DNA of 64,000 nucleotides. It comes from Clavaria fumosa (taxonomy: Eukaryota; Basidiomycota; Agaricomycetes; Agaricales; Clavariaceae). Position 1 is the stretch's first letter, and the number at the start of each line of letters is the position of its first letter. A model generated the notes under the pieces. The model had not been told where the DNA came from. It saw only the letters and a list, made by a program, of their open reading frames with translations, and did no database searches. Where the stretch lies: contig OX637796.1 of NCBI GenBank assembly GCA_951802425.1, positions 3,782,001 to 3,846,000 of the forward strand, given 5' to 3'. The position numbers and the translations under genes were made by a program. Of this stretch, positions 1 to 61,463 are shown in pieces.

Positions 1-2778
1 CCTGAGCACCTCTCCTCCAAGCTGTATTCTTTGACACGGCAGGAGATGGTGGAGATGAACCGTTGGGTGGATGAGCAGCTTGCTTCTGGACGAATCCAGC
101 CCTCAAAATCCCCGTATGCCAGCCCCTTCTTCTTCAAACATGAGAAGGACAAACTGCGGCCAATCATCGACTACTCGAGGCTGAATGCACACCTGATCAA
201 GGACAAGTACCCCCTCCCCCGCATCCGAGACACAGTGGATGTGCTTAAAGGAGCGTCGATCTACTCTAAGATTGATGCAAAGGGAGGTTTCCCATCTATG
301 CAGGTCTGGCCCGAGCACCAGCACCGCTGCGCCTTCCTGACACCCCGTGGACTCTTCGAACCAGCTGTCATGTGGTTTGGACTGCAGAATGCCCCTGCTA
401 CCTTCCAACGCTTCATGAATCATGTGTTGAGGGAGGAGATTGCAGGAGGACATGTGAGGGCCTATGTGGATGATGTCATTGTGTTTGCAGAGGACTTGGC
501 TACACACCGGTACTGGATGGATCGGGTCTTGAGGAAGTTTGGAGAGAATGGGTTGTGTCTCAAACTCAGTAAATGCGAGTTTGAGAAGAGCGAGATCATC
601 TTCCTGGGGATGAAGATCTCCCACAACAGACTAGAGCATGATCCGGCCAAGGGTGCGGCAGTCCGAGATTGGCCACGTCCCAAGAATGTGAAGGATGTCC
701 AGAGGTTCAATGGAATGCTGAACTACCTCCGCCGACACATCCCGAATCTTTCTGCCCGGGCAAAGCCACTCTTCCGGCTGACTGGGAATGTTCCATGGAA
801 ATGGGAGGAGGAGGAGGAAGCAGCCTTCCGAGATCTCCGCCAGGCACTCGTATCGGCCCCGGTCTTGGCTCTGCCTCAGGACAAAGGGAGATGGAAGGTA
901 GAGACAGATGCAAGCAACCTGGCAACTGGTGGAGTGCTCTCACAGCAGCAGATGGATGGAACCTGGAGAGTTGTTGACTATATCTCCAAGGCCCTCACTG
1001 CAGCTGAGAAGAACTATGATGTGTACGACAAGGAGTTCTTGGCTGTGATTCGGGCACTTCGCGAGTGGCGAGCATACCTCATTGGAGCAGAGGAGACGAT
1101 TGAGATCTGGACGGACCATGCAAACCTCCAGTACTTCCGGAAGCCCCAGAAGTTGAAGCCGAGGCAGGTTCGTTGGGTTGGAGAGCTCCAGTGCTTTGAC
1201 TTTGAGATAAAGTATCGCACTGGCAAGTCGAATACAAAGGCAGATGCACTCTCCCGGAGACCGGACTATGGAGAGATGGTGGAGGAGGATGCACCGGTGC
1301 AGGTTTTCCCGGAAACGGAAGTCCGTGTGTCATTCACATCGGAAATGGAGACGCTACTCCAGAAAAATAGCGCGGTACACATACAGAAGCCGGAGGAGCT
1401 TGATGATGAGTGGACACGAGATCGTGCTGGACTCTGGCGGAAGGGGATAGTCACTTGGGTCCCCCTAGGAGCTCGTGAGGCCGTTCTTGAGTTTGAGCAT
1501 GACCTCCCCGCTGCTGGACACCCTGGGCCCCGGAAGTTGAGAGCAGCACTAGTGAAGGGTTATTGGTGGCCGGACATGGTAAAAGATGCGGATCGGTATG
1601 CCCAGGGGTGTGAGACATGCCAGCGGACAAAGCCCGACCGTACCAAGCGTGCTGCCCCACTGCACCCCCATCTGGTGCCCAATGGTCCCTGGTCAGTGAT
1701 TTCATGGGACATAGTCGGTCCCCTCCCCCTCTCCCGTGGACATAATGCCATCCTTGTTATTGTTGACAAATTCACGAAACGGACACTGCTCGAAGCGATT
1801 GGGCTCGACCTCACAGGACTTGGAGCGGCGCGTCTCCTCCGGGATCGAGTGTTTCGTGACCATGGAGTCCCTCACAAGGTTGTGAGTGACCGGGGGTCCC
1901 AGTTTGTGTCCCGCTTCATGAAGGAGTTCTACTCCATGATCCGGGTAAAGGCAAATCCAAGTACTGCCTTTCATCCACAGACTGATGGACAGACGGAACG
2001 GGCGAACCAGGAGATGGAGATCTATCTCCGGGCTTATGTGGACCATCTCCAGGATGACTGGGCTGAATGGTTGTCCACTGCGGAGTTTGCTCTTAATAAT
2101 CGTGAGCACTCAGCAACAGGACAGACACCTTTCTTCCTCGATTATGGACGACACCCATGGAATGGGGGGCTCCGGCCACCTTCTGAGGTGAACCCAGCGG
2201 CAGACGAGTGGATGGCTAAGCTCACGGAGTCCCGAAGAGCAGCCAAGGAGGCAATGGAGAAAGCGGTGGCAGCGATGAAGAAGAGCTACGATAAGGGGAA
2301 ACGCCCAAGTCGGGAGTACTCTGAGGGAGATCTGGTCTGGCTGGATACTAGAAACTTGAAGATGGACCGGCCCTGTAAAAAGCTTGACAACAAGAGAGCA
2401 GGCCCCTTTGCAGTTGAGGAGAAGGTGGGACCTGCTGGGTATCGCCTCAAGCTCCCTCGGGCCTGGCGCATCCATCGAGTCTTCAATGAGTTGCTGTTGA
2501 CACCATACCACCCCCCCTCCTTCCCTTCTCAGAACCTGCCTCCCCCTCCACCCCCTACGATTGATGACGACCACCTGGAGTATGATGTGGAGGCGATCCT
2601 TGATGTTAAGAAGGTGGGACGTGGGGTGAAGTACTTGGTGAAGTGGTTGGGATATCCAGTGGAGGAAAACACTTGGGAGCCCCGTAGGAACCTCACTAAC
2701 GTAACGTTGCTTCTCCGGGACTTCTTCCTCTCCCACCCCGACAAGGCCAAGCTAGCTGGTCGGGACGCCCAGCCTTAA
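1..2778 (+). CDS. Gypsy Pol polyprotein, 5'-truncated (RT, RNase H, integrase, chromodomain)
   Basis: The frame is open from base 1 to the TAA at 2776-2778 (about 925 residues), with the start outside the window. Visible in order: RT with the YVDD active site near residue 155; RNase H starting at ETDAS near residue 301; an integrase HHCC zinc finger near 500-545 (GHPGPRKLR, CETCQRTK); the integrase core with D in SWDIVG (about 570), D in SDRGSQF (about 630) and E in QTERAN (about 666); and a C-terminal chromodomain (YLVKWLGYP, ENTWEP) near 860-905. Known role: it makes cDNA from the element RNA and inserts it, and chromodomains can steer insertion to heterochromatin. All catalytic residues are present, so activity is possible if the missing 5' part is intact. 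Confidence 0.93.
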   Translation, partial: PEHLSSKLYSLTRQEMVEMNRWVDEQLASGRIQPSKSPYASPFFFKHEKDKLRPIIDYSRLNAHLIKDKYPLPRIRDTVDVLKGASIYSKIDAKGGFPSMQVWPEHQHRCAFLTPRGLFEPAVMWFGLQNAPATFQRFMNHVLREEIAGGHVRAYVDDVIVFAEDLATHRYWMDRVLRKFGENGLCLKLSKCEFEKSEIIFLGMKISHNRLEHDPAKGAAVRDWPRPKNVKDVQRFNGMLNYLRRHIPNLSARAKPLFRLTGNVPWKWEEEEEAAFRDLRQALVSAPVLALPQDKGRWKVETDASNLATGGVLSQQQMDGTWRVVDYISKALTAAEKNYDVYDKEFLAVIRALREWRAYLIGAEETIEIWTDHANLQYFRKPQKLKPRQVRWVGELQCFDFEIKYRTGKSNTKADALSRRPDYGEMVEEDAPVQVFPETEVRVSFTSEMETLLQKNSAVHIQKPEELDDEWTRDRAGLWRKGIVTWVPLGAREAVLEFEHDLPAAGHPGPRKLRAALVKGYWWPDMVKDADRYAQGCETCQRTKPDRTKRAAPLHPHLVPNGPWSVISWDIVGPLPLSRGHNAILVIVDKFTKRTLLEAIGLDLTGLGAARLLRDRVFRDHGVPHKVVSDRGSQFVSRFMKEFYSMIRVKANPSTAFHPQTDGQTERANQEMEIYLRAYVDHLQDDWAEWLSTAEFALNNREHSATGQTPFFLDYGRHPWNGGLRPPSEVNPAADEWMAKLTESRRAAKEAMEKAVAAMKKSYDKGKRPSREYSEGDLVWLDTRNLKMDRPCKKLDNKRAGPFAVEEKVGPAGYRLKLPRAWRIHRVFNELLLTPYHPPSFPSQNLPPPPPPTIDDDHLEYDVEAILDVKKVGRGVKYLVKWLGYPVEENTWEPRRNLTNVTLLLRDFFLSHPDKAKLAGRDAQP

Positions 2779-2789
2779 GAGGGGGGTGA

Positions 2790-3089
2790 TGTTAGGATCG
2801 CTTATGTAAGCCATCCCAAAGTGCAGTTGTGGAGAAACTGGGGAGGGTTGTTGGAAGGTCACATGACCTGTGGCTGTGGTCAGATTACATAATCGTAAGA
2901 TCACATGACCTGGGCCTGGGCGCATCACGTGATCCGAGAGGTCCGAGCGTGGGAACGCCGGCAAATGCCGAAGCGTTCGCTATATATACTACGTCTTTTC
3001 CATTCTTGTACCCTTTTCCCCTTATCTTAGTATTGTCGTCATGACCTTACGCTTAAGTTGTGTGAGACCCAGTCTGATAGGAGCTGACA
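2790..3089 (+). repeat. 3' LTR of the first gypsy element
   Basis: It starts TGTTAG just after the polypurine run and ends CTGACA, giving the TG...CA ends expected of LTRs (300 bp). A TATA-like CTATATATACTA lies near 2981. The U3 part has three palindromic boxes: AGGTCACATGACCT (2856-2869), TCACATGA (2901-2908) and ATCACGTGAT (2924-2933). The partner LTR is outside the window, so the 5' boundary is inferred from the polypurine tract and the TG rule; a start at 2787 is also possible. Confidence 0.75.
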
Positions 3090-4052
3090 GGGAAACCGGG
3101 GATTTGGGAGGGGTCAAAACCATGGAGAGCCGAAAAGGGGGTAACATTGGAATCATGAATAGGCCACAGGTTGAGGGTGAACTGGGCAAGGGGAAGTATG
3201 GTGGCCCAGTCAGCCTGATCTTCTTTGGTCAACACCCAGAGTACTACCTTGACTTCTTGGTTGGCCCTTTCCACTAGTCCATCCATCTGGGGATGGTAAG
3301 CTGTAGACATGGCCAACTTGATCCCCAGCTTGTCATAAACCTCATGCATGAACTTGGAAATGAATTGGCCCCCTTGGTTGGACACTACTTTCTCCAGAAG
3401 TCCATAGTAGGCATATATTTTCTCCAGGAGGATTGAGGCCACTCCTTCCAAGGTCAGTTCCTGGACAGTCAGGACAAGGACAATTGTTTTGGTAAGGTAG
3501 TCCTTGATTACCAGGATGGTGTCATAACCTGAGGATTCCGAAACAGGGCCAATAAGGTCCCAACCAATGACCTGCCAAGGTCACGAGGGGATGGGGAGCA
3601 GGTGGAGAGGTGCTGGCTTCCATCCACATCAGGGTTTTATCCTCAGGCAGACATTGCAGGTGATAACATAGACATGGGTGTCCTTTTTGAGTGTGGGCCA
3701 GTACCAATACTTCATGACCACAGCCTGGGTTTTGGTAATCCCCAGATGTGCAGTAGTCCAGGCCAAGTGGTGGAGGTTGAGGATGTCCTTTACGAGTGTT
3801 GGTGGTACCCAAAGTTTCTCCTGTACCTGAAAATATCCTTCCCCATCCTTCTCCGCTTCCTCTGGTGGGGACCCTAGGGCCTGCTCAGTCTTCAGCTTCT
3901 CCATCAGGGTTAGAGTTTCATTAACTCAGAAGAAGTGGTTGGGTAGCAAGACCTGGGTGGGGTGGGGAGGCTGATCATCATAGTCGGGATGGCAGGATAG
4001 GGTGTCGGCAGCAGAGTTCAACTTTCTGGAATGGGGAATGTCATGAAAGCGT
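3090..4052 (-). pseudogene. Gypsy element A, RNase H end and integrase, decayed
   Basis: Reading the minus strand gives the RNase H/integrase linker (KLNSAADTLS, near 4020), then an integrase zinc finger (HHLAWTTAHLG... CNVCLRIKP, 3629-3780) and an integrase core piece (VSNQGGQF, STAYHPQMDG, 3200-3400). Stops and frame changes interrupt it (for example NHFF-stop near 3925 and a break between 3451 and 3629). The integrase stops at 3090 where the LTR of the first element begins. At its upstream edge the coding continues in sense with the RNase H piece at about 16286, so the two stretches are inferred to be one older element later split. Confidence 0.8.
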
Positions 4053-4131
4053 CATCCATACTATCAGGCCAACAAATTTCAATCCTTTAACTTAAGAAAC
4101 ACCATGCAAATCAGGTGAACAAGGGGCTAAA
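4053..4131. mobile_element. Left remnant of mosaic segment B
   Basis: This short stretch lies between the element A RNase H/integrase linker and the CTAAA target site of element C. It has no coding match I recognise. It is read as the left end of segment B, whose right part is 14584-16285, because removing element C joins the two and element A coding resumes on either side. No clear terminal inverted repeat or target duplication of B was found. Confidence 0.4.
4127..4131. repeat. Target-site duplication, left copy (CTAAA)
   Basis: CTAAA directly precedes the left LTR of element C and is repeated exactly after the right LTR at 14579-14583. A 5-bp duplication is usual for Ty3/gypsy integrases. 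It fixes both ends of element C to the base. Confidence 0.92.
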
Positions 4132-4356
4132 TGTAATACTTTCTATCCCTCAAAAGAACCGGACTCGACTGTATATTGAGTATGGTAGTTCTATGTAGAG
4201 GGATCTACCCTCTCTGTACAGTCGTGACGCGATATATATAGGCGAGCGGCCCTCTAGGGGCCGCTGAGGTAAGCATAGCCTAAGCGGCTATGCTAGTAGA
4301 CTATTATGGTATGTATATTATGTAATAAAAGAATAGAAAAGGCCTATAGCCTTACA
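4132..4356 (-). repeat. 3' LTR of element C (left in window)
   Basis: 225 bp, starting TGTAATACT and ending CCTTACA on the plus strand; nearly identical to 14354-14578. It contains a run of ATATATATA (TATA-like, about 4232-4240) and strong hairpins: AGCATAGCC/GGCTATGCT (4272-4294, 5-nt loop) and AGCGGCCC/GGGCCGCT (4245-4265, 5-nt loop). Confidence 0.95.
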
Positions 4357-4368
4357 CCCTCCCCCTCC
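4357..4368 (-). other. Polypurine tract of element C
   Basis: On the minus strand GGAGGGGGAGGG lies directly upstream of the LTR start TGTAAGG. A purine tract here is the known primer site for plus-strand DNA synthesis in LTR elements, and it confirms the orientation. Confidence 0.85.
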
Positions 4369-4653
4369 GGAGAGGCCCCAACCAGAGGCAACGCGCGGGC
4401 AGCGCGGGACGACAAGCAGAAGTAGAATAATGTTACAAAGGGCGCATCCCCTTGGGCAAGGTTACCGCCATGTCACAGGGCGCGATCCCCTCCTGGTTCC
4501 TTCGCCTAGTGCTGACGGGTCCTACCCGGTGGTCTGCACGACCTGCCCCCAGTTGGACAGCGCGTCACGAGCGGCACACCCCGGTGGGGGGTGCCCCAAG
4601 TGCCGCTGTCTCGTCCTGTGGGGTAGGCATATGTTTTTAAAGAGCTCGGACGC

Positions 4654-5145
4654 TTAGTCCGAGCCCTGCTCGTAGTCGCATGGCGGCTCGCCCTCGTCGT
4701 CACTCCAGTCGGGCGATGACACAACAGGCCTCTTCGCGGCCTTAGCGGCTGATGACTTAGCCGCTTTCTTTTGTTTTTGAGAGGGCCCCGCACCCTCTGT
4801 CTGGGATATTGTTAAACCCCCAATAGGTAGCCCTAGGGGGTTCCTAACGGTGGACATGCTTCCACCGTCTTCAAGGGGCGCATTGCCCCTCCGTTCGTCT
4901 CCTGCCTTCTCGCTTAATCGAAGATGGCACGGACGCGCCCTGCGCCCTATGCACTCTAGCAGTGCATATGTCCGGGGCGGTACGGGAGGCTTCTCCCGTT
5001 CACCCAGCGCTAGCTGGATATCATCATCCAAGGGGGCATTCCCCTTTCGCACGTACTCGCGTGCCCACGCAAGTACAAATTCGTCCCAGAGCTCCATTTC
5101 CCCAACGGAGACTCCGGCGTCTACAAACGCCTTGTCAGGACCCAT
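4654..5145 (-). CDS. Element C accessory reading frame Y (163 aa), unknown
   Basis: It starts at an ATG (MGPDKAFVDAG) and stops at 4654. The N-terminal half looks folded (ELWDEFVLAWAREYVRKG). The C-terminal third is low-complexity and basic then acidic (KQKKAAKSSAAKAAKR, SPDWSDDEGE), like a nuclear-tail or chromatin-binding segment. I recognise no family. It sits between pol and the 3' LTR, where env or other accessory frames occur in some LTR elements. Its stop codon lies in the loop of a perfect 8-bp hairpin (4644-4664). Whether it is translated alone or spliced to frame X is unknown. Confidence 0.5.
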   Translation of the reverse strand: MGPDKAFVDAGVSVGEMELWDEFVLAWAREYVRKGNAPLDDDIQLALGEREKPPVPPRTYALLECIGRRARPCHLRLSEKAGDERRGNAPLEDGGSMSTVRNPLGLPIGGLTISQTEGAGPSQKQKKAAKSSAAKAAKRPVVSSPDWSDDEGEPPCDYEQGSD

Positions 5146-6613
5146 TCATTTTTCCTTGCCCAAGCCGACTTCACCCACATCCACAAGCTTCCCGACGACC
5201 CTCTACAACCTCGCGAGTCCCTCTATACACTTCCGGGACCTGCTGTCTCCTTCCGGAAGCCTCTCCAACCTCCCCCGCGCTCACACGACACTCGCGACCA
5301 CCATGCTGTACTCGCGACGCTTCCTATTACTTCACCCTACGCGCATACTTCACCCGGACCCACCAATCCTATGCGCTACACACCGATACGCGTCTACTTC
5401 CACCAGCATGTGACTTGCCGCGCGGCACCCCCGGCGCTACCACTACCAGCGCCAATACGTTACCAATGTTATGACCGTTACTTGCGTTACCAGCGTTACC
5501 AACATGACTACCCACCCATAGGTCACCTGCGTCACTAGCGTCACCCCCGTGATCACTCTTATGATCTCGCGACCTTAACACTCAAACGCGCCACCAATGG
5601 TCAGCTGTATGTACACTTCAAATATGCATCCCTTCTTCTCCTCAGTCATCTATAATTATGTTACTTATGATCCGAGAATCCCTCCATAGTTATAGCGACG
5701 TATATACTTATTTAACTAGGTCGCGACCTGTGACAGGTCATCTTCGCAACCTTACCTATGCATACCTAACCCCTCGCAACCTTAGTAGAACACGCGCCCA
5801 GTCACTTTACGACTAAACATACCCCGTACTACTATAGTCTTGTCACCTGGCGACCTCTGTACTTTCCCTTTTTCATTATACTCTCTCTATGTACGTATAT
5901 AATGTCTCGCATGTACTTATGGTACTCTAGACTTGATATTGATGCACATTGGTTTAAGCTTGAGGCTAGTACGCCCTTTGAGCTTAGAACCATCGCGATT
6001 GATAGGTCTTGTCTCTCTTGGTGACCACAAGATCGCCAAGACACACTCTACTCTGTTCTAACTCACCCTCTGCACTCCTACAACTCGCGCGATCTAAGTA
6101 TTCTCTATTATTCGTCTTGGTACTGATCTTGGAACCCTACAGGTTCACCCGTTGGTTGGCAAAGTCATCGCCTTTACCGACATATTTCTCAACACCGTTG
6201 CGACCACCGCGACCCTTCCAACATTGTCTATTTCTTTCACCTCGTCTTTTTCCTTCTCTACGCTTCGTCGGTCGACCTCGCGACCTTCTCAGCATTGTCA
6301 CTTTCTCCCACCTCATCTATTCCTTTCTTCACGCTTCGTTGGTCGACTTTGTGACCCTCTCAGCGTCACCCATTTCCCCCCTCCTCGTCAATTACTTCCT
6401 TTACACTTCATTTACCGACTTTGCGACCTTCCCAACGACGTCTTCCTCCTCTATACTTGTCTTTCTTCGCTCTTACATCTTCTCAGACATCTTCGCGACC
6501 TTCTGGGACCGAGCATTCTCGACTGTGCTCAACAGTTGATTGGTCTTAGCGAGTTTCCAGCATAGGTCACCAACAAGTCGATCTCCGACACTACTATCGA
6601 GACGGGACAGGCC
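5146..6613. other. Non-coding, repeat-bearing stretch inside element C
   Basis: About 1.47 kb between accessory frames X and Y with no convincing protein. It is C/T-rich on the plus strand with many GCGACC and GTTACC words. It holds a tandem repeat (6209-6565) and largely lacks the hairpins that fill the rest of the element. It could be a long intron, a structural 3' region or an older insertion. Confidence 0.55.
6209..6565. repeat. Tandem repeat of about 71 bp
   Basis: Units begin GCGACC or GTGACC at 6209, 6280, 6351, 6423 and 6495 (periods 71, 71, 72, 72). Shared words include CTTCTCAGC, CACCTC and ACGCTTCG..GGTCGAC. Copies are diverged, with the second and third most alike. No protein is encoded consistently across units. 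Confidence 0.75.
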
Positions 6614-8321
6614 CTAACATGCCTCAATCGTCTGCGCAACGGTTGGTGTTATCTTTGTGTTCCAGTGCCTGGAACGTCGTGCAGGGAGGACTCTCCCTTT
6701 AATGGCCTGCGCGTACGCCCCCTTTGACACAAAAAGGGCTACAGCCATAGCTAGGAACGGGCGCCGCATTCGGGCCCGGGACGGTGCGCACGCCATTATG
6801 GTACGCCAAATGGCCACCTTGCGTGCAAAGGACAGGGGTGAGTCCCCATCCTTATCAATACCAAGGATGGCCGCTCTGCCCATCCTTATGTCGGCGGCCC
6901 AACAGCGCAGGTCTGACACTGCGCCTCTGTCGCCTTTCAGGTTCATAGGGGGAATTTGTCGCCTTTCGGGTTCATAGGGGGAATTTCTCCCTTCTCCCCT
7001 ACAAAGGAGAGCCACAGCTCTTGGGGGAGCAACGGCTCCTGGTCTCTACAAACTCCCTAATGGGAGGCGCAACCACTCTTGCCGCTGTCAGCGGCAATGT
7101 CTGGTACGACGGATAGGAGGGTGCTCCCCCTCCTGCGACTTCCAAGGGTCCTGCCCTCAGGGATGGGTCGCCCATCCCTCCGCTCTCTCGCAACATCTGC
7201 CCCTGCAGATGGCATGCCACCCGGTCTGCCGATTTCTCGACGCCGGCAGGAACTCTCCAGTTCCTCAACAGCCAGTCCTCAACTGGCGTAGGCAGCTTTC
7301 CCGCTGCCGCGTTCTTCTGGGCCTCCTTAATGGCCCATCACATCTTCATTACAGCAGTCATATCATAACTGCCGTCAGGCGCTCCATGATGCGCCTGCTG
7401 GTTGAGGGCTATCACCTCCTCAACCGTCTTCAACTCGACAGCCCACGCACCAGGCTTGATGGACATCCCCGATGGCCAGGGATAGCCATCCGGAGCCCTG
7501 TCCGGGCAGGGGGCATTAAAGGGATAACCCTTTGTCAGAGGCGCAAGCACCGTCTCCGCAAATGTTCGTTTATGCCTCAGTGAGGCATCAGGGTTCTGCT
7601 GGCTAACACCAGCAGGTGGAAGAGGGGGATACCCCTCCTCAATGTTCATGGGGACATCCACGTCCCCCATAGGCGGCGCTATGTCCGCATATGAGACAGC
7701 AGTGCGGGCCCTTTTAGGGTCCCGCTCCAAAGGATCCCTGTCAGGTCCCTTCCCTTTCGCCGCCATTCACACCGCGGCGAGCTCCTCGTTGGTGCTTGCC
7801 AACTTTTCTGTCAAGGAGAGAACCTTCTCCTTCGCCTTTCTAAGGTCGGCCTCGACCTTATCCAGGCTATCGTAAGCTTTTTCAAGCTTTTGCCGGTGCC
7901 CGGCGCAAAGGGCATTGCCCCTCTCATACTCTTCATGCAAGTCATCCAACTTGCGCTGTATCATTCCGAGCTCCGGCTCAAGCTCACGCCTAGCGCTTTC
8001 CTGCGCTTCCTTAAGCGTTTGTTGAAACGCTTCGTCCGAGTGCAGCAGCAACTCGAAGATGTGACGACGGAATCCGATACACTGAGTGCACCGGGATCCG
8101 TGGGTGATCGCATGGATCATGCGATCCTGGACCCAGGGGAGAGTTTCCTCCCCTTGCGACAACGACGGCTGGGACAACCCAGCCGTTGTGACGATGCTCG
8201 TCGGCAGCGAGTTCCCTGGCACGAGGCCAGGGACGGCGGCAGTAGCGGTAGAGGCGGCAGTGGTAGCAGCGGCAGCGCGGGTAGCGCGAGGAGATGGGGT
8301 TTCCCCCATCGGATCATCCAT
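6614..8321 (-). pseudogene. Element C accessory reading frame X, broken, unknown
   Basis: It starts with an ATG at 8321 (MDDPMGETPSP). After an Ala/Thr-rich stretch comes a CTQC motif and a long predicted coiled coil (about residues 95-184, heptad-rich in E, K, L). The frame stops at 7767 (TGA), resumes in the same frame (MAAKGKGPDRD), stops at 7338 (TGA) and resumes again to 6999. A frame change then leads to a plausible segment to 6614 (FARKVAIWRTIMAC). Both TGA stops could be CGA arginine cod­ons changed by C-to-T. I recognise no domain. The position 3' of pol suggests an accessory or structural protein. The piece breaks are seen directly; joining them into one ancestral frame is inference. 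Confidence 0.5.
6929..6986. repeat. 29-bp tandem duplication
   Basis: Two adjacent 29-bp copies starting GTCGCCTTTC (6929-6957 and 6958-6986) differ at one base. They lie near the frame change in accessory frame X and may contribute to it. Confidence 0.8.
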
Positions 8322-8407
8322 TGTAACAAATGGCTGATGAAGAAAAAGAGAAAAAGAGGGCGGGCCCTCTTAAGGTTTTGTACCTTACGGTGGAGCCACC
8401 ACGTGAC

Positions 8408-11400
8408 TTAATCACTGTGGCTAACGACCCAGTGGTCTGGCTCGATCGCGTTTACTACTCCGCGCTCTGCTCGAGGGCGCCTAGGTAGCGCCCTCCACGA
8501 GTCTACACCTTGTAGTTCAAGGTAATGGTCTAGAGCAGCCAGCTCTTTGACCCCCATGTACGGCTCCCAGGTCATATCCCCGAGGTTCCATCGAACCTCG
8601 CATTCCAGGTGGCGGCCTTCCCACCTATGGCCAATAATGGCATCTACTAGCCATTCCTCCTTTGGATCCACACCAAAGTCATAAAAGACTTTCACTTCAT
8701 GACGCGGAAACAATGCGTCATCATTTGGTTCATGTCGCCGCAACTGGCTGACATGGAATGTCGGATGGATTCTCCTCGACTTTAGCGAGTCGGGGAGCTC
8801 CAGCTCGTACGTAGACGATTCCAGTCTACACGACCGTATTGGGTATGGCCCAATAAACTTTGGCATGAGCTTTCTAGCTCGTTTTTTAGGGAGATTCAAG
8901 TTCTCTGTTGAGAGGTAGACTAATTCTCCCTCTCTAAACGGGTGCTCTGCCCGTCTACGCTGGTTAGCGTAAAACGTCTGGTGGACGCGACTTTCTATAA
9001 TCGCGTCGTGCGCCATTGCAAGGTTGAGCGCGGCTTTCTCCGCGAACATCCGTACCCCTCTGGGCACCGCCCGGAGGTCATCTGGCAACTCTGCCATCAT
9101 CTGGGGCATGTACCCATAGGTGAGCTCAAATGGGGCAAACCCCGTCGACGTGCTTATTGACGCATTAATGGCGAACTCGACCATTGGGATTCGCTCCGCC
9201 CAGTCTGTCTGGTCCGGTTGGACCACAGATCGGAGGATCTGAGACACGGATCGGATCGACCGTTCCGTCGCTCCATCCATCTGCAGATGGAAAGCTGTGG
9301 ACATCCGCAGCTTGACACCAAGTAGTCGGTGTGTTTCCTGCCAAAAGGCAGACGTAAATCTCGGATCACAATCGGACACAATCGATCCTGGCAACCCATG
9401 CAGTCTCACTATATGGGTTAGAAAGAGCCAGGCTAGCTCTGCTGCCGTTACCGAAACGGTAACTGGTACTAGGTGTACCAGTGAAGTGAGGCAGCAGATC
9501 ACCACCCAGAGGTAGTCCGCCTCTTTCAACATAGGAAATGGACCTACGAAGTCCATTCCTATTGATTCCCAGGGCCGCCTGGGGATCGGAAGGGTGTGTA
9601 GAAGCCCTTGCGGCTTCTGAGGGGAAGTCTTGCTCATCTGGCACACGCCGCACGTCAAGCAAAACTTATTGATGTCTTTAGACACCGATGGCCACCAGTA
9701 GTAATGGCGGACGTAATCCATCGTTATCCGCGACCCCATGTGTCCTAGGACCGCATGGGCTTCCTGGATTATTCTCCCAGGGATGCTTTTCCCTTCATGA
9801 AGGGTACGAGGCATGCAGAGCACCTCGTCTCCCTTTTTATTCTCAGTGAAGATCAGGTCATCCCTGATCTTAAAACCAGTGTAGTTTCCCGGTTTCTCCA
9901 GAATTATTTTGAACAGGCCATCCTGTTCATAGCCGTCATGGATGCTTTGCAGCATCCTGCTATCCCCCCCTTCCACGCGGGGCCTTAAGGGCACGAGCAT
10001 CTCGTCCCTCACCTCCCCGTCCGCTTGGGGCACAGGCGGCGGTTGCTCCTGGTCCGCGGCAGGTGCACGTACTCGTAGTGCGCGCACCTCCTCCAGGCGT
10101 CCATGGGGCAACTCGTCCCCTTCAGGGTCAAGGCAAACGTCCGCCTTCACGTACTCATGATCCGGATGAATCTCATCTGTCGTGTCACTCATATGGTAAC
10201 GCGAAAGGCCATCCACAACTTTGTTGCTCTCGCCTTTAATGTAAGTGATGGAGTAGTCAAACCTCTCCATATATTCCATCCACCTGGCCTGCTGGCCAGA
10301 CAAGCGTGTTTGGTTCTTAAAGAACCCCAGCGCTTCGTGGTCTGTGACCACGTTGATTCGTCTACCAAGGAGTTTATCCTCCCATTTCTGTAGCGATTCG
10401 ACAATCGCTAAGGCCTCCCAGTCCCAGGTTTTGTAACTAAACTGGGCCGGGCTGAACCTTTTAGACATAAACCCTGCCGGACGGCAGGTTTCCCATGTCT
10501 TTCCTTGGCCATACATGGCCCCTACACCTGACACTGACGCGTCGCACACAAGCCAGATTGGCTCCTGTACTGCCGCGTCTACCGGGCGTAATATTGGTGT
10601 TTTACATGCCAATGCCTTAATCATCTCCATGCACTTGTCATGGAGTGGTCTCCAGTGAAATGTTCACGTTTCACTACACAGACTAGCCAAAGGGCCAGTG
10701 TAAGCGGACAGATCAGGCATGAACTGTCCAATGTACTGTACTAATCCAAGGAACCTCTGCACCATTAACGCTTGTTGGCGTTTTCCAGTTATGGATTTTA
10801 TCCATTTTATCCACTGTGACGTGGATTCCTTGGGCATCTATAATATGCCCTAAGCAATCTACGCTCTTCACGTATAACGAGCACTTCTTCTTGCTCAAGA
10901 AAAGGCTCGCGCCTTTGAGGGTCTCAAAGACCATCTTTAAGTGACGCTCATGGTCCTCCAAGGTCTTGGAGAAGACGAATACATCGTCTAAGTACACATG
11001 CACGTACTTTCCTAATTGATGACGAAATATGTGCGTCATCAGGCGCTGGAAGGTAGCAGGGGCATTACAATCCCCTATCTGCATCACCTGTGAGAACATG
11101 GTGCCCAAGACAGTTGCGAACGCCGTCTTCCACACGTCCTCAGGCTCTATGCGTACTTGCTCGTACGCGTCTGATAGGTCAATCTTTGACCTATACACGG
11201 CTCTAGCCACGTCCTGCCTGATCTGGTCCTAATCAGGCAACGGGGTAATATCCCGTACTGTGTTCGCATTCCGTTTCCGACAGTCTACGACTGTCCGTAG
11301 CAGCGGGTTCCGGCTGCTTTTTGGTATCCATAACATAGGAGCTGCTTGCGATGCTGCTCCTGCCTCCCACCAACCGTTAGTAATATAACGGTTCACTTTC

Positions 11401-14315
11401 TCAAGGAATTGTTCCTTAAATGCCTCAGCACACCGAGGCAGGTAATAATTATAGACTTGCTTTTCGTCTATTAAGGGTATGCAGTGGTTCACCGCCCGAA
11501 ACGGCGGCAGCCTGAGGGGAACTCCCCCAAAGAGCTCAGCGTACTGGTTAAACCAGTACTCACGCCTGCCTTCGAGGTAGGCGTCGTCTATCTTTACAGA
11601 GGCATTAGCCTCTCCCCCCTTCCAGGGCTCACCCGCATCCCGGGGGCCCGAGTGTAGTCAGCTCTTTCGAGCTTCCTTCCTCGGCGCATTCTTAGCCGTT
11701 ATACGGACACATAATGCTTCCGTCTCCTCACTGGGCGACATCGCCTGAAGGGTTTTCCCCTTCCCTTCGCCAATCCGGATTGCCCGTCAGTGCACATCCA
11801 GTATCACACGGCGGTCATACATGAACGCTGTTCCGACTATGATATCATAGCGATCGATGTTCGCTATATCAAAATACTGGTCCTCCACCAGTATTCCTCC
11901 CAAATCTACCGCTACGCGGCATCCGCATGTAATCGTCGATCGGCTGCTGATACAGCCGAGTTGGATAGGAACTGGATTATCCAGTTGGAAGGTTGGTACC
12001 TTTGTCACCCAGGCAAAGTCCAGGCTCATCAGGTCCGGGGTACTTCCAGAATCGAAAAGCGTATACGCTTTTACACCGTTCACGGTGATGTAGGCCCCAA
12101 GGCATTGCCTAGCCTCCTTTGTCACTGCCAGGCGCAATCCCGTCCGCTCCTTCCGGACATGCGCCCGAAACGGCCTGTTGTCGACATGGCCGACGCGTAC
12201 TTCTGCCGTGTAGAGGACCTCGTCCTCTTCCAATTCCTGGATTCCAGTGACCTGGTCGCTTTCCGCCTCCTCCTCGAGCTCTTCAAGGACGAAGAGCTCG
12301 TCTGAATCGTACTGGTCCCTGCAACCAGTGTAGTCGTCTTCCGCGACTTCCTCCGGTAGGGCTTCACCCTCTGGCTCCACACTTTCAACCGCAGGTGTTT
12401 CCAGCGGTTCCTCGGGCTCCGACTCGCCCGGCTCCTCTTGTAAGGCGTAGTTCCTTACATTTCCCCTAAAAGCCTCTGGCTTTCGCTGTGACTGAGGGCA
12501 CACATTCGCGTAGTGCCCTGCTTTCCCGCACATATAGCATGTTAGAGGAGCTTTCCGCTCCTCTCCGCCTCGCACCCCAATCTTGGGCACCGCCTTAGGC
12601 GGTTCTAGCCAGGGTTTCCTTCCTCCGGTTTGGACGCGGTCGATCCGCAGGGGAACAGGTTCCCCTGGCCTCCGGTCTGTGTGCGGCTGATACGGCCGCA
12701 GTCTCACAAACCTCTGCCCTACAGGCACTCTGCCTGTAGGCGGGTTTCCTTTGGGACCTGCCTGGTTCCCTACCAAAGGCACTGCCCTCCGCTGCTGGAG
12801 GTAGTGGAGGGTCGCTTCCACTTGGCGACTAGCGTCGATAATATCCTCAACCGAGGATAACTCGATGCTAATTGCGCAAGTTTTGAAGATGGCCTCCACC
12901 ATCTCGTTAGGCAGTCCGTTAAGGAACTGCCTTTTCATCGTACCGGCGTCAGGCGGGGTGAGCATTCTCTCTGCCACCTGGGCCAATTCGTTCCAGAATC
13001 CCAAGGCGCCCTTTGCCTTTGTAAACTTCACCTGATAGAAGGCATCCACTGCCTTCTGGGCCATTACCTCAGTCAGGAACCGCTTAAACATAGCGGTTAT
13101 CAATTCCTCGAAGGTCCACCTTCGAGGAGCACGGGATAGACCCGTTACTTCTTGGGTATACCAAGTAGCAGCTATTCCGCTTAAGCGTGACCCCACTAGC
13201 ATAACGCGTTGGTGCTCCAACTGCAGGCCGACTACTCTATAGAAGTAGAAGTAATTAAGGAGGCCATCGAGCCACCTTTCCCAGACGACGAGGTCGTCTC
13301 GTCCATCATAAAGCTCAGGGGGGTCAATCTTAATCCCCCTAATCTCAGCTATTGCCTCAGGCAATAGCGAGGTTTTATCTCATATCATCACAAGGTAGCG
13401 ATGTAATACATCGCTCTGGTAGTTTGTAGAACTCGGGGACACCTCCTGAGTAATCTCCTGCTCCTTCTGGGGCGGTTCCATCCATCCGAACGGGCCCATC
13501 CGGCCTGTTGGCTCTCGCTGACCCAGCTGTGGGTAGCACAACATAAGCCGCGGCTCCGGCCCTGCTGTTTCTCGAGGGCTGCCGCCCTCCATTCCTGGTT
13601 CGCCAGGGGTTCGAGAACCATCCACGCGGTTCTCCCTTCGCCACCCTTCCTCGTGGTTGGCTGGCGCCTGACTCGGCGGGGCAGGCCCCCCTTTGGGTTC
13701 CAACGAATCACGGCGTTGCCACTGTAAGGGGGCCGCTAGCGCGGTTCCCTGCTCATCTAGCGAGTCCAACACCCGCCTAACGTGGGTAGCCTCCTCACTT
13801 AGCCGTTGCCGAATAGTGGCTTGGCAATTTTTCATCGCCCTTACAAGAGCCTCAAACTCTTCGTCCTGGTGGGAAAGTTCCGCCTGAATGTCCGAGAGTC
13901 TCTCGGCTACAGCGTTAGCTCGCCCTATCGCTGTGGGCTCATTTCCACTATTGGAGGGAGCCCACGAGCTTGACCGCTCTCGTGGCCACCTCTCGCGGGT
14001 TTCTAAGGGCTCTCTGCCCTCTCCTTTTGAAGGTCCGGCCTTCTCAAACGATGGCGCCTCGCCAGTGACTTGGCGCATTGTGGCGCCCTCCTCGTGGCGA
14101 TTGCCACATGTCGACGGTGTTTCGGACCTAACACCGTTGTCAGGGGCCAGTGACGCCACGTCAGCCCTTAGCGGGAGTTCACCGCTGGGCTCGACAGAGG
14201 GTCCTATTCCCTCTGGCTGCGCGACGCCTGTGTCGCGCAGAGGTCCTACCAAGGGAGGAGTTTCTCCTCCCTTCCTGTTGTGCTTCTTCTGCGTGGCTAT
14301 ACGGGTGTAACCCAT
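8408..14315 (-). pseudogene. Element C Gag-Pol reading frame, broken
   Basis: From the ATG at 14315 (MGYTRIATQ) the frame encodes Gag with a coiled stretch, a second Gag part (13364-11787) with a CCHC knuckle (CYMCGKAGHYANVC) and a retropepsin-like DSGS motif. RT follows (VHVYLDDVFVF, about 10990), then RNase H (VCDASVSGVG), an integrase zinc finger (HAVLGHMG, CGVCQMSK) and integrase core (MDFVGPF, SDCDPRF, DGATER). A chromodomain-like end (CEVRWNLGDMTWEP) precedes the stop at 8408. Stops lie at 13380, 11787, 11658 and 10664 (TGA) and 11229 (TAG), with a frameshift at about 10745-10785. The stops at 13380, 11787, 11658 and 11229 are all in one frame. This copy cannot make a full polyprotein. 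Confidence 0.9.
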
Positions 14316-14353
14316 TTCTAGCCACACTCGTTGTGTTGAAGGTTCAAAAAAGT

Positions 14354-14578
14354 TGTAATACTTTCTATCCCTCAAAAGAACCAGACTCAACTGTATATTG
14401 AGTATGGTAGTTCTATGTAGAGGGATCTACCCTCTCTGTACAGTCGCGATGTGATATATATAGGCGAGCGGCCCTCTAGGGGCCGCTGAGGTAAGCATAG
14501 CCTAAGCGGCTATGCTAGTAGACTATTATGGTATGTATATTATGTAATAAAAGAATAGAAAAGGCCTATAGCCTTACA
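14354..14578 (-). repeat. 5' LTR of element C (right in window)
   Basis: 225 bp, matching 4132-4356 apart from a few differences (for example GACTCAAC for GACTCGAC and GCGATGTG for GTGACGCG), most of them C/T or G/A changes. TG...CA ends are preserved and CTAAA follows. Confidence 0.95.
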
Positions 14579-14583
14579 CTAAA
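14579..14583. repeat. Target-site duplication, right copy (CTAAA)
   Basis: Exact copy of 4127-4131 directly after the right LTR of element C. Confidence 0.92.
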
Positions 14584-26607: not shown

Positions 26608-28530
26608 ATGCTGCTCGAAGTGCCATCTGCTCTTCGCGAAAAGGATAAAGAGTTGCACGTGTCCACCAGGATGCCTAGATTCGAGCGGATCAGGCGACGG
26701 AAGTTCCTCGTCTTCCTCCTCGTCGTGGTTCTCGCGGCCGGTTTGGCATACGCCCATTTCAATCTCAGCACACAGGTTCCTCTTCTAATTCCAAGGCCAT
26801 CTAAAACGCTGGACGTGCCCAAAAAGCAGTATCCCTCCTTCGAAATTCCACCTGTGCATGAGGCCGACTTCGAGCCACCGGCCCACACTGAACCAACCCC
26901 AGGCGCCTCTCCCTCAGCAATTGACCCGTTGGACCCGTTGGCTTCTCTCAATGGACCACCCACGGACAGTGTATGGGGTTAGTTGCGCCGCACCAACGCC
27001 GTTGCCTATGAGCTCATCTTTTTTTCCCTTTTCTTTTTCTTTCAGAAAACCTCCGAAATGACACTAAGTACATGTCTTCGTGGATATCTGCCGGATGGAG
27101 TGAGTTCATATAATTTAATTTATTTCTCTTTTACCTCATCTGACCCTGATTTTCAGCTAATGACGTGATGACATATGCGAGTCTTTGGTGCCTTCCTCCA
27201 CTGGAAGTTTTACCAATTGAATTTAAACCAGGATAATCTAATTTACCTTGCACTTATTACCGAACGCGTACCAATCATAGGACCCTTTACCGCGTCCCAC
27301 ATAGGCCATGCCCCACCTATACCATTCGGCGAAGTGTTCGATATGCCTCGTCTGCGCAAGCTCCTTGGCAAACCCGTCCTGGAATGGCATGAAGTCAAGA
27401 AGGAAACAAGTGATACGTGGGACGATCTCGGCTGCTGGAGCGTATGGCAGTCTGTCCAGTACAATGACGATCAACCTCGAGGAAGCTACTCTTTAGAATT
27501 GCTCAAGCTCGGTATGTCCACTGAGAAATTACGTCGTCTTTTCTTAGCAGTTGAACGATCCCTGCCAGACATCTCCTACACAACCACCCCAACATGGATC
27601 AAGATGGTACCTGGTTACGAGCACGATCAGCATACTCCTTTTTGGGCTATCGCTAAGCTTGCTTACCCAGAAACGCGCAACCAAAGTCTGCAGACACCCA
27701 TTCCATCCCGGCGTCATGGAGTATCGCTCCCTCCTAACGAACATCTCGTATGCTACGACTATCTGTATTACGTCGCCGCACACCAGGTAAAAGACAACAG
27801 ACCTTATGCCGCCTACCACGCATTCACTCACACGCACAATCCGCAGCCTTTTGAATATTCATTCGATTACAGCCCTGCATGGAACCATGTCGGCAGGCAC
27901 ATACATTGGACTAAAGCTATTGAAGACCTAGCAGCCAGCTACGTCCGAGCCACCGTCGGCGCGCGTGGCTCGGAGCACACACCACTAGTAGTGTCCCCTC
28001 TTCATTCTTTCTTCCCTGTAGCGAATACTCACCGTTTCCCCCTGTATCGTAGTACATCACTATACACGTCCGCCACAATGAATTCGAGAACTGGTGCTAT
28101 GGCGTGCCCAAGGTAGAATGCTTTGCGAACATCACGGTGATCGCACGCCGGGTGCAGGAGGTCAAGGACGAGCTGCTTGAGCGTAAGGGTCTGGACGTGA
28201 AACATGTGATCATGACGAGCGATGAGACGGACCCGGAGTGGTGGGCAGAAGTCAAGGCGCAGGGATGGCTGACCGTCGATCACTCGTACACGGTCAAGCT
28301 GTATGGCAAATGGTGCGTTTTTCTTTCCTCGTCTTGTTGTGCTCTCAACGTCACGGCTGCTACGTAGGTACCCGGTTTTCATCGACGCAGCCATTCAGTC
28401 GAATGGCATTGGATTCGTCGGCACAGACAGGTCGACATTTTCCATGCTCGCAGACCGCCGTGTCAGGTCTTGGCATGACGGGGTGACTCGAATGGTCAAA
28501 TGGGGCACACCGAATGCGGACGATCATTGA
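26608..28530 (+). CDS. O-fucosyltransferase-like protein, copy 1 (507 aa)
   Basis: Eight exons: 26608-26977, 27046-27099, 27157-27176, 27232-27511, 27551-27786, 27847-27987, 28053-28312, 28368-28530 (1524 nt). A type II membrane anchor (FLVFLLVVVLAAGLAYAHF, about residues 33-52) follows a basic cytosolic tail. A Pro/Glu stem leads to the catalytic region: ENLRNDTKYMSSWISAGW, DNLIYLALITERVPII, FGEVFDMPRLRKLLGKPVLEW, PFEYSFDYSPAWNHVGRHIHW, ITIHVRHNEF, HVIMTSDETD, FVGTDRSTFSMLADRR. This is the basidiomycete O-fucosyltransferase-like family; the IHVR arginine is the expected GDP-sugar contact. Intron 3 needs a GC-AG pair. A later start at 26671 is possible. Confidence 0.85.
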
Positions 28531-29256: not shown

Positions 29257-31170
29257 ATGCCGTTCAGAAGTCCATCTGTTCTTCGCGAAAAGGATAAAGA
29301 GCTGCATGTGTCCACCAGGATGCCTAGATTCGAGCGGATCAGGCGACGGAAGTTCCTCATCTTCCTCCTCGCCGTGGTCCTCTCGACCGCTTTGATATAC
29401 GCCCATTCCAATCTCGATGCACAGGTTCCGATTCCGATTCCAAGGCCATCCAAGACGCTGGACGTGCCAGAAAAGCAATATCCCGCCTTCGAGATCCCAC
29501 CTGTGCACGAGGCCGAGTTCGAGCCACCGGCACTCGCCGAGCCAACCTTGGGCGCCTCCCCCTCAGCAATTGATCCGTTGGACCCGTTGGCTTCTGTCAA
29601 TGGACCACCCACGGACAGTGTATGGGGTTAGTTGCGCTGCATTATTGCCGTTGCCTATAGGCTCATCCTTCTTGCAGAAAACCTTCGAAACGACACCAAG
29701 TACATGTCCTCGTGGGTATCTGCCGGATGGAGTGAGTTCACTTAATTCTTCTTCTCTTTTACCTCATCTGAGCCTGATTTTCAGCTAATGACGTGATGAC
29801 ATATGCGAGTTTTTGGTGCCTCTTTGGTGCCTTTCTCTATTCTGACGTTTTCCCAATTGACCTTAAACCAGGATAATCTAATTTACCTCGCACTTCTTAC
29901 CGAACGCGTACCAATCGTAGGAATGTTTACCGCGTCTCACATAGGCAGTGCCCCATCTATACCATTCGGCGAAGTGTTCGATGTGCCCCGTCTGCGCAAG
30001 CTCCTTGGCAAACCCGTCCTGGAATGGCGTGAAGTCAAGAAGGAAACAAGCGATACGTGGGACGACCTCGGCTGCTGGAGCGTATGGCAGTCTGTCCAGT
30101 ACAATGATAAGGAACCTCGAGGAAGCTACTCTCTAGAATTGCTCAAGCTCGGTATGTCCACTGAGAAATTACGTCGTCTTTTCTTAGCAGTTGAACGGTC
30201 CCTGCTAGACATCTCCTACACAACCAGCCCAACATGGGTCAAGATGGTACCCGGTTACGAGCACGATCAGCATGCCCCCTTTTCGGCTATCGCTAGGCTT
30301 GCTTACCCAGAAACGCGCAACCAAAGTCTGCAGACACCCATTCCATCCCGGCGTCATGGAGTATCGCTCCCTCCCAGCGAACATCTCGTATGCTACGACT
30401 ATCTGTATTACGTTGCCTCACACCAGGTAAGAGACAACCAACCCTATGCCGCCTACCATGCATTCACTCACACGCACAATTCGCAGCCTTTTGAGTATTC
30501 ATTCGATTACAGCCCTGCATGGAACCATGTCGGCAGACACGTACATTGGACTAAAACCATTGAAGACCTATCAGCCAGCTACGTCCGAGCCGCCATTGGC
30601 GCGCGTGGCTCGGAGCTCACACCACCAGTAGTGTCCCCTCTTCATTCTTTCTGCCCTGTGGCACAATTCTCACCGTCTCCCCCCACATCGTAGTACATCG
30701 CTATACATGCTCGCCATACAGATGCCGAGTCGTGGTGCTATGGCGTGTCCAAGGTAGATTGCTTTGCGAACATCACGGTGATCGCACGCCGGGTGCAGGA
30801 GGTTAAGGACGAGCTGCTCGAGCGTAAGGGTCTGGACGTGAAACATGTGATCATGACGAGCGACGAGATGGACCCGGAGTGGTGGGCAGAAGTCAAGGCG
30901 CAGGGATGGCTGGCCGTCGACCACTCGGACACGGTCAAGTTGTATGGCAAATGGTGCGTCATTTTTTCCTCTCTTGTCGCGCTCTCAACGCCTCAGCTGT
31001 TTCGTAGGTACCCGGTTTTCATCGATGCAGCCATTCAGTCGCACGGCATTGGATTCGTTGGCACAGACAGGTCGACCTTTTCCATTCTCGCAGACCGCCG
31101 TGTCAGGTCCTGGCAGGACGGGGTGACTCGAATGGTCAAATGGGGCACACCGAATGCGGACGATCATTGA
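29257..31170 (+). CDS. O-fucosyltransferase-like protein, copy 2 (507 aa)
   Basis: Eight exons with exactly the same lengths as copy 1: 29257-29626, 29678-29731, 29785-29804, 29872-30151, 30191-30426, 30487-30627, 30694-30953, 31008-31170. It has the same anchor (FLIFLLAVVLSTALIYAH), stem and catalytic blocks, and is about nine-tenths similar to copy 1 by eye. It differs at the GDP-contact block (IAIHARHTDAESWC instead of ITIHVRHNEFENWC). Intron 3 also needs a GC-AG pair. It is intact and so probably functional. It arose by tandem duplication with the transporter, whose second copy decayed. Confidence 0.85.
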
Positions 31171-59900: not shown

Positions 59901-60361
59901 AAGCTCCAGTGATTTGGAGAATTGGTCTGCTTGTGATGAGGAATTGTAATGGGAATAGCTTATCAATGTGTTGAGATAAAGATGCCAGAATGGTGGATGT
60001 GGAATTGTCATCCTTGCATTCATCCAAAGCATCAATTACAACTACACTAGGAGGGAACCTATTCCTCATTGCAAGCAATGGTCCAACAATAATCTTTTCC
60101 AACTGATAAGAGACACTGGAGTAAATAACATCAGGGTCAGATTTGATAACTTCTGAAAGGCCAGCTTTGAACTCTGGACAAAACTGCCCCAATTGATAAG
60201 CAATGGTAGTGAAAACCAATTTGAGATTGCTGCAATCTGCATTATCCCTGGAGCAAAAGAAGCTTGCTGCCAGCATTCCATGGTCTTCACAGAATTTTGC
60301 AGCAGTAAAGGCAATTGTGGTCTTTCCACTCCCAGCTACTCCATTGATCCAAAATATCTGC
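56175..60361. other. CpG desert over the receptor gene
   Basis: I count three CpG dinucleotides in 4.19 kb (about 56845, 57503 and 59441), against several per line in both flanks. It covers the 3' flank, the WD40 region and most of the NACHT exon, and ends abruptly near the P-loop codons. Confidence 0.8.
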
Positions 60362-61463
60362 CGAGTCCCCATGACATGCAAATGGTCAGAGGATGTGAGA
60401 ATGCCCTTCTGGGAGAGGCATTCAACACCATGACTAATCCACCAGTACAGCTCATCGAGAACCTCTTTCCGAGTACCACCAAGACATGGGACTAGTTTAT
60501 CATTACACCTAAAATTCGCAGTGATTGCACGAGGTAGATTGAGACCAGCTGGATAGCCCAACGTAAGAGCATTATAGCTAAATTATGAATAGGCCATTAC
60601 CATAGACATCAAGCCTTGTCTTGATTTCCTGATAAATTAATCATATGAGAAACAGGACAAGGAGACAGACCGGAAGAGACAAACCTGGAAGCTGGCCTCA
60701 GCTCGCACGGCATGTTCCTCAGCTCGCATAGCATGTTCCTAGCAATCAGTCAGCACTGGTCAGCGCCCACACCAATGCACCAATTTATTGCTCATGAGCT
60801 TACTCCAAGTGTGATCTCAATGGTAATTGCACTTTGAACCTTAGGGTGTCCGCACCTCAATCACAGTGTCCGGATGAATAAGTTATCTACTTACCAGGAA
60901 ATGTTGTATTGAGTCATTGACAACAGAAATGAGGCCCATAATCTCAACAGCATCACGGTCACGGGTCAAGACACGCTTGAAGCGGTTGCGCATGATCATA
61001 TGCTGAGCTTTCTCGCCAACAGATTTCCATGACCTGCCGTCCGAGACCAAGATCAACACAAATAATATACTAGGGGATAATGACTCACTCGGACAAGTGG
61101 TTGATACGGTCAGTCATTGCTGGATGCAGGGTGCCGCCATTGGATGCATCACACAGTATTGTGTTCAAGTCTCGAACGCGACGGTCCAATAATTCCAAAT
61201 CATTGCTGTTCTGCGAGGTTTTCTGTGCAGAGGATTAGTGAACAATACAAAACAGCATGGCAAATGATATGTGTTTCACACACTTGAATAGCATCGAGGA
61301 GGATTGCGAATCCATTGATACCTTCCTGTAGTCCTGGTACGGCCGACTTTCCCGCAACCTCCTTGAGAAGATTGAGAGCATTCTGGAGACTGATGAATGC
61401 AAGAGACTGAGGTCCCGAAGAGGACTTGAGCTTCGCTAGGGTGGTGTCAAGAGCTTTGCGCAT
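56941..61463 (-). CDS. STAND/NLR receptor: N-terminal helical domain, NACHT, 12 WD40 repeats
   Basis: It starts MRKALDTTLAKLKSSS (61463). Short exons encode a helical N-terminal domain (LLDRRVRDLNTILCDAS, RSWKSVGEKAQHMIM, RDAVEIMGLISVVNDS) and a coil (EEHAMRAEEHAVRAEASFQ). The big exon to 58969 carries NACHT with P-loop GVAGSGKTT and Walker B VVVIDALDEC, then ITSRP. After an intron (58968-58912) come 12 WD40 repeats and a C-terminal tail. Known family: fungal NLRs such as HET-E/HET-D, nonself sensors in which ligand binding by the repeats drives NACHT oligomerisation. The N-terminal effector type is not recognised. All frames are open, so it is probably functional. Confidence 0.85.
57169..58680 (-). 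repeat. Array of 12 WD40 repeats, 126 bp each
   Basis: Twelve 42-residue units of the form EGHSxxVTSVSFSPDGTRI then (V/I)SGSxDxTVRVWDAVTGGH. Most differences lie at the two residues after HS and at the residues around SGSxDx, while the rest is almost invariant, also at DNA level. This is the pattern of concerted evolution with diversifying binding-surface sites known from HET-type receptors. Confidence 0.93.

Follow-up and report, generated by a model that had tools for sequence, protein, structure and literature searches.

A Ty3/gypsy retrotransposon of Clavaria fumosa is dense in short perfect hairpins that are probably maintained by selection

The window analysed here is a 64,000 nucleotide (nt) stretch of the genome of the basidiomycete Clavaria fumosa (contig OX637796.1, positions 3,782,001 to 3,846,000). 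It carries on its minus strand a whole long terminal repeat (LTR) retrotransposon, designated element C, which holds 88 perfect hairpins with arms of at least 7 bp and loops of 0-10 nt, a density of 8.4 per kb. We consider it probable that selection keeps this element folded, with hairpins along its length, so that its single-stranded copies are folded and possibly shielded from silencing.

The hairpin density of element C is far higher than in the rest of the window. By the same definition two hairpins were found in window 1-4131 (0.48 per kb) and 38 in 14579-64000 (0.77 per kb). Perfect 8-bp arms number 70 in element C versus 1.35 in dinucleotide shuffles, a 52-fold difference. When synonymous codons were shuffled (mean of 100 shuffles per frame) the excess was 9- to 15-fold in the five frames listed below, whereas the gypsy pol frame at 31-2778, used as a control, has 2 hairpins versus 1.34 in its shuffles. 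These results bear out the initial annotation, which had described by eye a retrotransposon saturated with inverted repeats next to a gypsy element without them: the density greatly exceeds that of shuffles in which codons and dinucleotides are kept, as well as that of the neighbouring gypsy element. All 14 hairpins named in it are present at their coordinates, the one at 12718-12740 having 10-bp arms. Nine had been counted in 12,640-13,410; nine are fully inside this segment and a tenth ends at 13415. A spacing of one hairpin every 30-50 bases is right for the median (38.5 bases for arms of 6 bp or more) and too short for the mean (59 bases); overall, short perfect hairpins recur roughly once per 60 to 100 bases. 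Hairpins had also been attributed to the entire element, coding sequence and LTRs alike. This holds for the five frames and for the LTRs, which carry two each, but the distribution is not uniform: segment 5135-6618 has few hairpins, since a different repeat is nested there. The features of element C are:

4132..14578, minus strand: whole LTR retrotransposon of Ty3/gypsy order (element C), defined by its LTRs, target duplication and domains, with 88 hairpins
14354..14578, minus strand: 5' LTR, 225 bp, with hairpins at 14467-14487 and 14494-14516
4132..4356, minus strand: 3' LTR, 225 bp, with hairpins at 4245-4265 and 4272-4294
14579..14583, minus strand: target-site duplication TTTAG on the 5' side, read from the sequence
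4127..4131, minus strand: target-site duplication TTTAG on the 3' side, read from the sequence
13380..14390, minus strand: open reading frame (ORF) of 336 amino acids that begins within the 5' LTR, without Pfam match; 8 hairpins versus 0.88 in synonymous shuffles
11787..13364, minus strand: gag-protease frame, RVP_2 above cut-off and a CCHC knuckle just below; 19 hairpins versus 1.24
10713..11210, minus strand: reverse transcriptase frame, RVT_1; 4 hairpins versus 0.40
8408..10630, minus strand: RNase H-integrase frame, RT_RNaseH, Integrase_H2C2 and SH3_Tf2-1, with rve below cut-off; 18 hairpins versus 1.75
7767..8321, minus strand: additional 3' ORF of 184 amino acids; 8 hairpins versus 0.89 in synonymous shuffles
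9537..9557, minus strand: hairpin AATGGAC/GTCCATT, an example that lies in the strongly conserved GMDFVGPF stretch of integrase
13105..13128, minus strand: longest perfect arms of the window copy, 11 bp with a loop of 2
5135..6618, no strand assigned: unrelated dispersed repeat nested in element C, a hairpin-poor internal control

The LTR termini, read directly off the sequence, are TGTAA...TTACA, that is, TG...CA ends, and a 5-bp target duplication (TTTAG) flanks the two LTRs. The repeat comparison gives an LTR length of 226 bp since both sides share one flanking G; 225 bp was taken. The order of Pfam domains on the minus strand (RVP_2, RVT_1, RT_RNaseH, Integrase_H2C2) is that of Ty3/gypsy elements. 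The zf-CCHC match in gag scores 20.0 bits for a cut-off of 20.8.

The hairpins of element C are short and their loops are confined to a narrow size range. The longest perfect arms are the 11 bp of the window copy and 12 bp in another copy, and pairing drops to about chance level outside the arms. For arms of 7 bp or more the excess returns to background beyond loops of 10 nt, while arms of 6 bp are mildly raised up to loops of about 14 nt. The excess begins at an arm length of 5 bp for loops of 3-10 nt and chiefly at 7 bp or more for loops of 0-2 nt. Mirror repeats show no enrichment (1.53 versus 1.70 per kb). The hairpins are not clearly regular in their spacing (coefficient of variation 0.77-0.91), and their distribution over the three codon phases (35/34/22 versus 385/280/329 in shuffles) is only suggestive.

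Folding was predicted in pieces along the element. With 200-nt pieces (n=44) the energy of element C lies below that of dinucleotide shuffles by 24.1% in the sense strand and by 23.9% in the other strand (Wilcoxon p 0.77 between strands), while the excess is about 0 in the remainder of the window (n=45). With 350-nt pieces (n=25) the figures are 22.9% and 24.0%, to be compared with 0.6%/0.6% for window 1-4131 (11 pieces) and 1.4%/1.2% for the rest (40 pieces). Both strands of the element are thus predicted to fold 23-24% better than shuffled sequence. G.U pairs represent 0.086 of the predicted pairs in element C versus 0.12 in the remaining window.

These structures coexist with conserved protein sequence. 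In the RNase H-integrase frame hairpins run across GMDFVGPF, DAIIESRV and other strongly conserved stretches, and the share of residues that match the majority residue among 19 relatives is as high in arms as outside them (0.636 versus 0.631); site conservation is also similar (0.731 in arms, 0.709 outside). Since arm residues are as conserved as the others, the hairpins would have been built mostly through choice among synonymous codons.

The main evidence for selection comes from an alignment of 43 copies of the element from the same genome (5770 usable columns, 192,665 copy-bases). The comparison runs from 1.87 kb into the element to near 7.7 kb and so takes in neither the LTRs nor the 5' frame, the 3' end or some 40% of gag. 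Variants found in one copy (private) presumably arose mostly after insertion, and variants found in two or more copies (shared) presumably mostly while the lineage was mobile. CpG variants were excluded because they recur in parallel here, and we also dropped columns with few copies or low local identity and variants at which the commonest base is present in less than 60% of the copies. Expected numbers come from draws with the same type of base change, at the same codon position and with the same CpG status, and differ slightly from one random draw to the next; significance was assessed by Poisson or Fisher tests, which assume independent sites. Among 168 shared variants, stems of 6 bp or more were lost 15 times versus 38.0 expected (P 2e-5) and gained 17 times versus 7.3 expected (P 1.5e-3, 2.3-fold). 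The 330 private variants stay near expectation, with 80 losses versus 75.3 and 19 gains versus 14.9. At third codon positions alone, shared losses were 2 versus 19.5 and gains 9 versus 3.4, private losses being 28 versus 24.1. Only 1 in 245 paired third positions has a shared variant versus 87 in 782 unpaired ones; private variants fall on 22 paired and 81 unpaired third positions (Fisher p 7e-6 relative to shared). The depletion is confined to paired bases. Shared third-position variants were found at 1 of 208 sites in stems, 9 of 68 in loops, 15 of 114 within the 5 nt beside stems and 58 of 596 elsewhere, so that loops and adjoining nucleotides are free to vary. Control hairpins with loops of 15-22 nt gave a null result (gains 5 versus 4.0, losses 6 versus 6.2); at loops of 11-14 nt there were 8 gains versus 3.2 and no clear deficit of losses (8 versus 9.8). 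The mirror-repeat control was not fully flat (gains 6 versus 3.1, losses 6 versus 3.2). Shared variants hardly ever touch paired third positions, whereas private variants hit them almost as frequently as unpaired ones, which supports selection, not drift, as the force maintaining stems inside the named ORFs. The suggestion that folding is selected while protein is still encoded is therefore supported there.

It would also be conceivable that shared variants avoid stems without any selection if reverse transcriptase or RNA polymerase made fewer errors on a paired template. Such a low error rate in hairpins would account for the missing shared losses but leaves unexplained both the hairpin excess and the 2.3-fold shared stem gains, and we find this explanation highly improbable.

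Several observations weigh against selection for folding. Arms have no preference for GC (57% versus 59% in shuffles), which is odd if stability is the selected property. No depletion is seen outside the named ORFs, where 7 shared variants were found in 280 stem sites and 15 in 593 other sites, with 8 stem losses versus 10.3 expected. First and second codon positions taken alone do not reach significance (2 of 243 paired sites versus 19 of 826, and 3 of 256 versus 11 of 828, respectively); under another stem definition the counts for both are 0 of 426 paired versus 28 of 1266. The loops of the sense strand are rich in A (0.312 versus 0.248 outside) and poor in C (0.176 versus 0.251), a composition that hints at the sense RNA alone. 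Lastly, private transversion gains (8 versus 3.4), private gains of stems of 7 bp or more (17 versus 9.6) and one loop inversion among the 43 copies suggest some templated change.

The latter observations relate to template switching, which had been put forward as a source of the perfect arms: a nascent strand folds back during reverse transcription and near-palindromes are perfected, with no benefit needed. The inversion is found in copy L051_L022, in the hairpin AGTGAAA..TTTCACT, whose arms are intact and whose 8-nt loop is precisely the commonest loop, CGCGAACG, in reverse complement. The loop CGCGAACG accounts for 16 of the 41 loops read, and 40 of the 41 are in the opposite orientation to that of L051_L022. 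Hairpin-mediated loop inversion thus appears to happen; a scan of 4265 hairpin loops (5-14 nt, all copies) flagged no inversion, but it passes over short loops and overlooks this known one too. Template switching is documented for yeast DNA in the part of the account available (PMC8604942), and it fits with near-chance pairing beyond the arms, with the lack of GC preference and with strand-symmetric folding. However, 16 of the 17 shared gains are transitions, which make up 36% of the possible one-step gains (P 8e-7), and in 16 of the 17 the partner base is unchanged. Copying would mend any mismatch, so the transition bias together with the unchanged partner argues that arm copying is not the main cause. 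Mutual arm copying predicts many paired changes, and the partner changed in just one shared and two private gains. Nor are hairpins with loops of 0-2 nt maintained, and in the RNase H-integrase frame arm residues match those of relatives at the same rate as the remaining residues. Occasional template-switching events probably occur, but this process is improbable as the main source of the perfect arms.

Under the favoured explanation, selection for folding, the pattern of losses indicates which kind of structure is retained. Counted by loop length, losses were 13 versus 9.1 for loops of 0-2 nt, 8 versus 24.2 for 3-5 nt and 11 versus 25.9 for 6-10 nt. Maintenance limited to loops of 3-10 nt points to real single-strand hairpins rather than to palindromes in double-stranded DNA. 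The treatment of weak pairs is informative on the strand involved. Avoiding G.U about as much as A.C is expected if selection acts on both strands or if pairing requirements are very strict. Shared losses were 6 versus 16.9 to G.U (0.35 of expectation) and 6 versus 14.3 to A.C (0.42), and shared gains 10 versus 3.5 from G.U and 6 versus 2.9 from A.C. Stems with one mismatch carry G.U in 26 cases versus 4.4 expected and A.C in 31 versus 5.4; CpG decay, being symmetric, partly confounds this equality where whole copies are compared, and we therefore relied on the non-CpG variants.

A simpler possibility is ordinary genome-scale ordered RNA structure (GORS) of the sense RNA only, in which the genomic RNA is selected, the other strand is idle and G.U is avoided merely as a weaker pair. 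RNA viruses have genome-wide RNA structure of this kind (PMC7642675, sections available), and the A-rich, C-poor loops agree with it, as does a perhaps slightly greater tolerance of G.U at third positions, where losses to G.U were 2 versus 9.4 and losses to A.C 0 versus 7.4, both observed losses being to G.U. In contrast, the folding excess is equal on the two strands, G.U is scarce among predicted pairs, losses to G.U are as depleted as those to A.C, and one-mismatch G.U stems are no commoner than A.C stems, although the CpG decay of genomic copies adds equally to the two kinds. We regard selection on the sense RNA alone as unlikely. Two-strand folding is the more likely of the two, and we tentatively propose a form of hairpin armour in which the RNA and its complement are both tuned, stretch by stretch and within the constraint of an unchanged protein, to fold on themselves, leaving no long double strand for the silencing machinery. 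No shared loop motif that might mark packaging signals stands out; only the A-rich, C-poor composition does.

The folded molecules would be the single-stranded intermediates of the element: its genomic RNA and probably minus-strand cDNA or antisense RNA as well, since the strict requirement for Watson-Crick pairs suggests that both strands matter. Folding within each strand would stop the two strands from annealing and so hide them from silencing triggered by double-stranded RNA. Argonaute/Piwi, RNA-dependent RNA polymerase (RdRP), Dicer and DNA methylase domains were found in the host genome; the presence of Dicer, Argonaute and RdRP makes silencing a plausible pressure.

A sister lineage related to element C is represented in the genome by loci L065 (2490-7152), L067 (1-3600) and L066 (2170-3677). 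The L065 element differs from element C by 10.9% outside CpG and lacks about 1.1 kb of pol; it is likely non-autonomous for this reason. Its ratio of observed to expected CpG is 0.13, sister loci range from 0.08 to 0.24 (L066 and L067 with flanks) and 40 copies of element C from 0.53 to 0.99, which suggests that the sister lineage has undergone CpG-specific decay. L065 has 41 hairpins. A simulation of neutral divergence plus CpG decay, which puts all divergence on one branch, leaves 14.7 +/- 3.3 (maximum 23 in 40 simulations); charging half of the divergence to L065 leaves 23.8 +/- 3.7 (maximum 34), and CpG decay alone acting on element C would leave 41.6. The predicted folding excess of L065 is 19.0% and 16.3% on the two strands (350-nt pieces). 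Pair-keeping changes between element C and L065 (7 seen from one side and 10 from the opposite side, with some pairs counted in both) at first resembled covariation; they were rejected as such because many of them affect CpG in the two arms and CpG is depleted in L065.

Near this sister element, L065 1-1944 forms a near-perfect 1.9-kb palindrome, being 99% identical to its reverse complement from one end to the other. Other matches of about 77-81% identity are found in the genome near contig ends.

Among the copies of element C, hairpin density falls with divergence (Spearman -0.40, p 0.011; 40 of 43 copies, leaving out 3 with fewer than 3000 bases). It also correlates with CpG loss (0.44), and the fall may reflect CpG decay too.

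CpG transitions represent 698 of 873 shared variants in 30 copies. Their dominance fits decay driven by methylation, and the genome does contain DNA methylase domains.

The genome of the window comprises 48.8 Mb in 17 contigs. The RNase H-integrase piece of element C has at least 41 match pieces in it, its own included, and the LTR at least 40 matches; the closest pol among the matches listed has 63% protein identity to that of element C, and the family of the related proteins P0001-P0003 59-63%. Named relatives of pol and of a host gene of the window are basidiomycetes, for example Collybia, Phanerochaete and Trametes, all of the class Agaricomycetes. Scans of viral contigs and genome contigs confirmed no DNA-level relatives in other organisms, and Rfam gave two matches up to E 1, both under the gathering score.

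The repeat nested at 5135-6618 has at least 54 match pieces in the genome, its own included (best 40 of 753 candidates scored), and its copies elsewhere have 75-97% identity. The L065 sister element aligns on both sides of this segment and lacks the insertion. Folding of the nested repeat is 19.4% better than that of shuffles on the plus strand and 5.3% on the other strand (7 pieces).

Elsewhere in the window, two adjoining frames at 56941-60561 (minus strand) code for an NTPase-like region followed by about 12 near-identical WD40-like repeats; by eye they resemble fungal NLR-type receptors. Two closely similar ORFs at 27175-28116 and 29803-30693 (plus strand), whose starts are about 2.6 kb apart, are apparently a gene duplication.

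The nearest parallel to element C is the GORS of viruses. As described in the available part of PMC7642675, it consists of consecutive stem-loops in coding sequence, with folding energy well below that of dinucleotide shuffles and less diversity at paired sites. Energy differences given there are 7.5-10.7% for hepatitis C virus, 12.5% for human pegivirus and about 15% for SARS-CoV-2, with a maximum of 23.4%; element C (22.9-24.0% in 350-nt pieces) is level with this highest recorded virus value. GORS belongs, however, to genomes of positive-strand RNA viruses whereas element C is an integrated fungal LTR retrotransposon, equal on both strands, with short perfect Watson-Crick stems and nearly invariant paired third positions. 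Element C may thus work like GORS, its folding being predicted, without being filed as GORS. Coding palindromes of Nematomorpha mitochondria are also perfect inverted repeats in which both arms encode conserved residues, but according to the available part of PMC6649704 their arms are at least 15 bp long (mean 43, up to 142), unlike the 11-12 bp maximum and short loops of the mobile element C. The genomic RNAs of Ty3, Ty1 and HIV-1, of the same broad element class, are folded with stable regions, yet they are mosaics in which these regions amount to up to 30% (Ty1, Ty3) or about 40% (HIV-1), and the portion of the account available describes neither a uniform hairpin density nor silent-site selection (PMC11381356). 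Inverted repeats shaped by template switching in yeast show arm homogenisation and spacer inversion, of which one case was found in copies of element C; the changes in yeast are multi-nucleotide, as given in the sections available (PMC8604942), whereas 16 of 17 shared gains of element C are single changes with the partner unchanged. A literature search, thin on subscription journals, found in the available text of its top-ranked papers no retrotransposon with genome-wide hairpins under selection, no GORS-like folding in this kind of element or of this strictness, and no transposon whose entire sequence serves as such a counter-defence.

Selected whole-genome folding, familiar from RNA viruses, would thus be present in an LTR retrotransposon, at the strength of the highest virus value in the survey cited. 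About 40 inserted copies with private, drifting changes are a control group supplied by the genome itself. The purpose of genome-scale structure becomes testable without a virus, in a fungus that carries Dicer, Argonaute and RdRP domains, and neither clocks based on silent sites nor codon statistics would be neutral in such elements.

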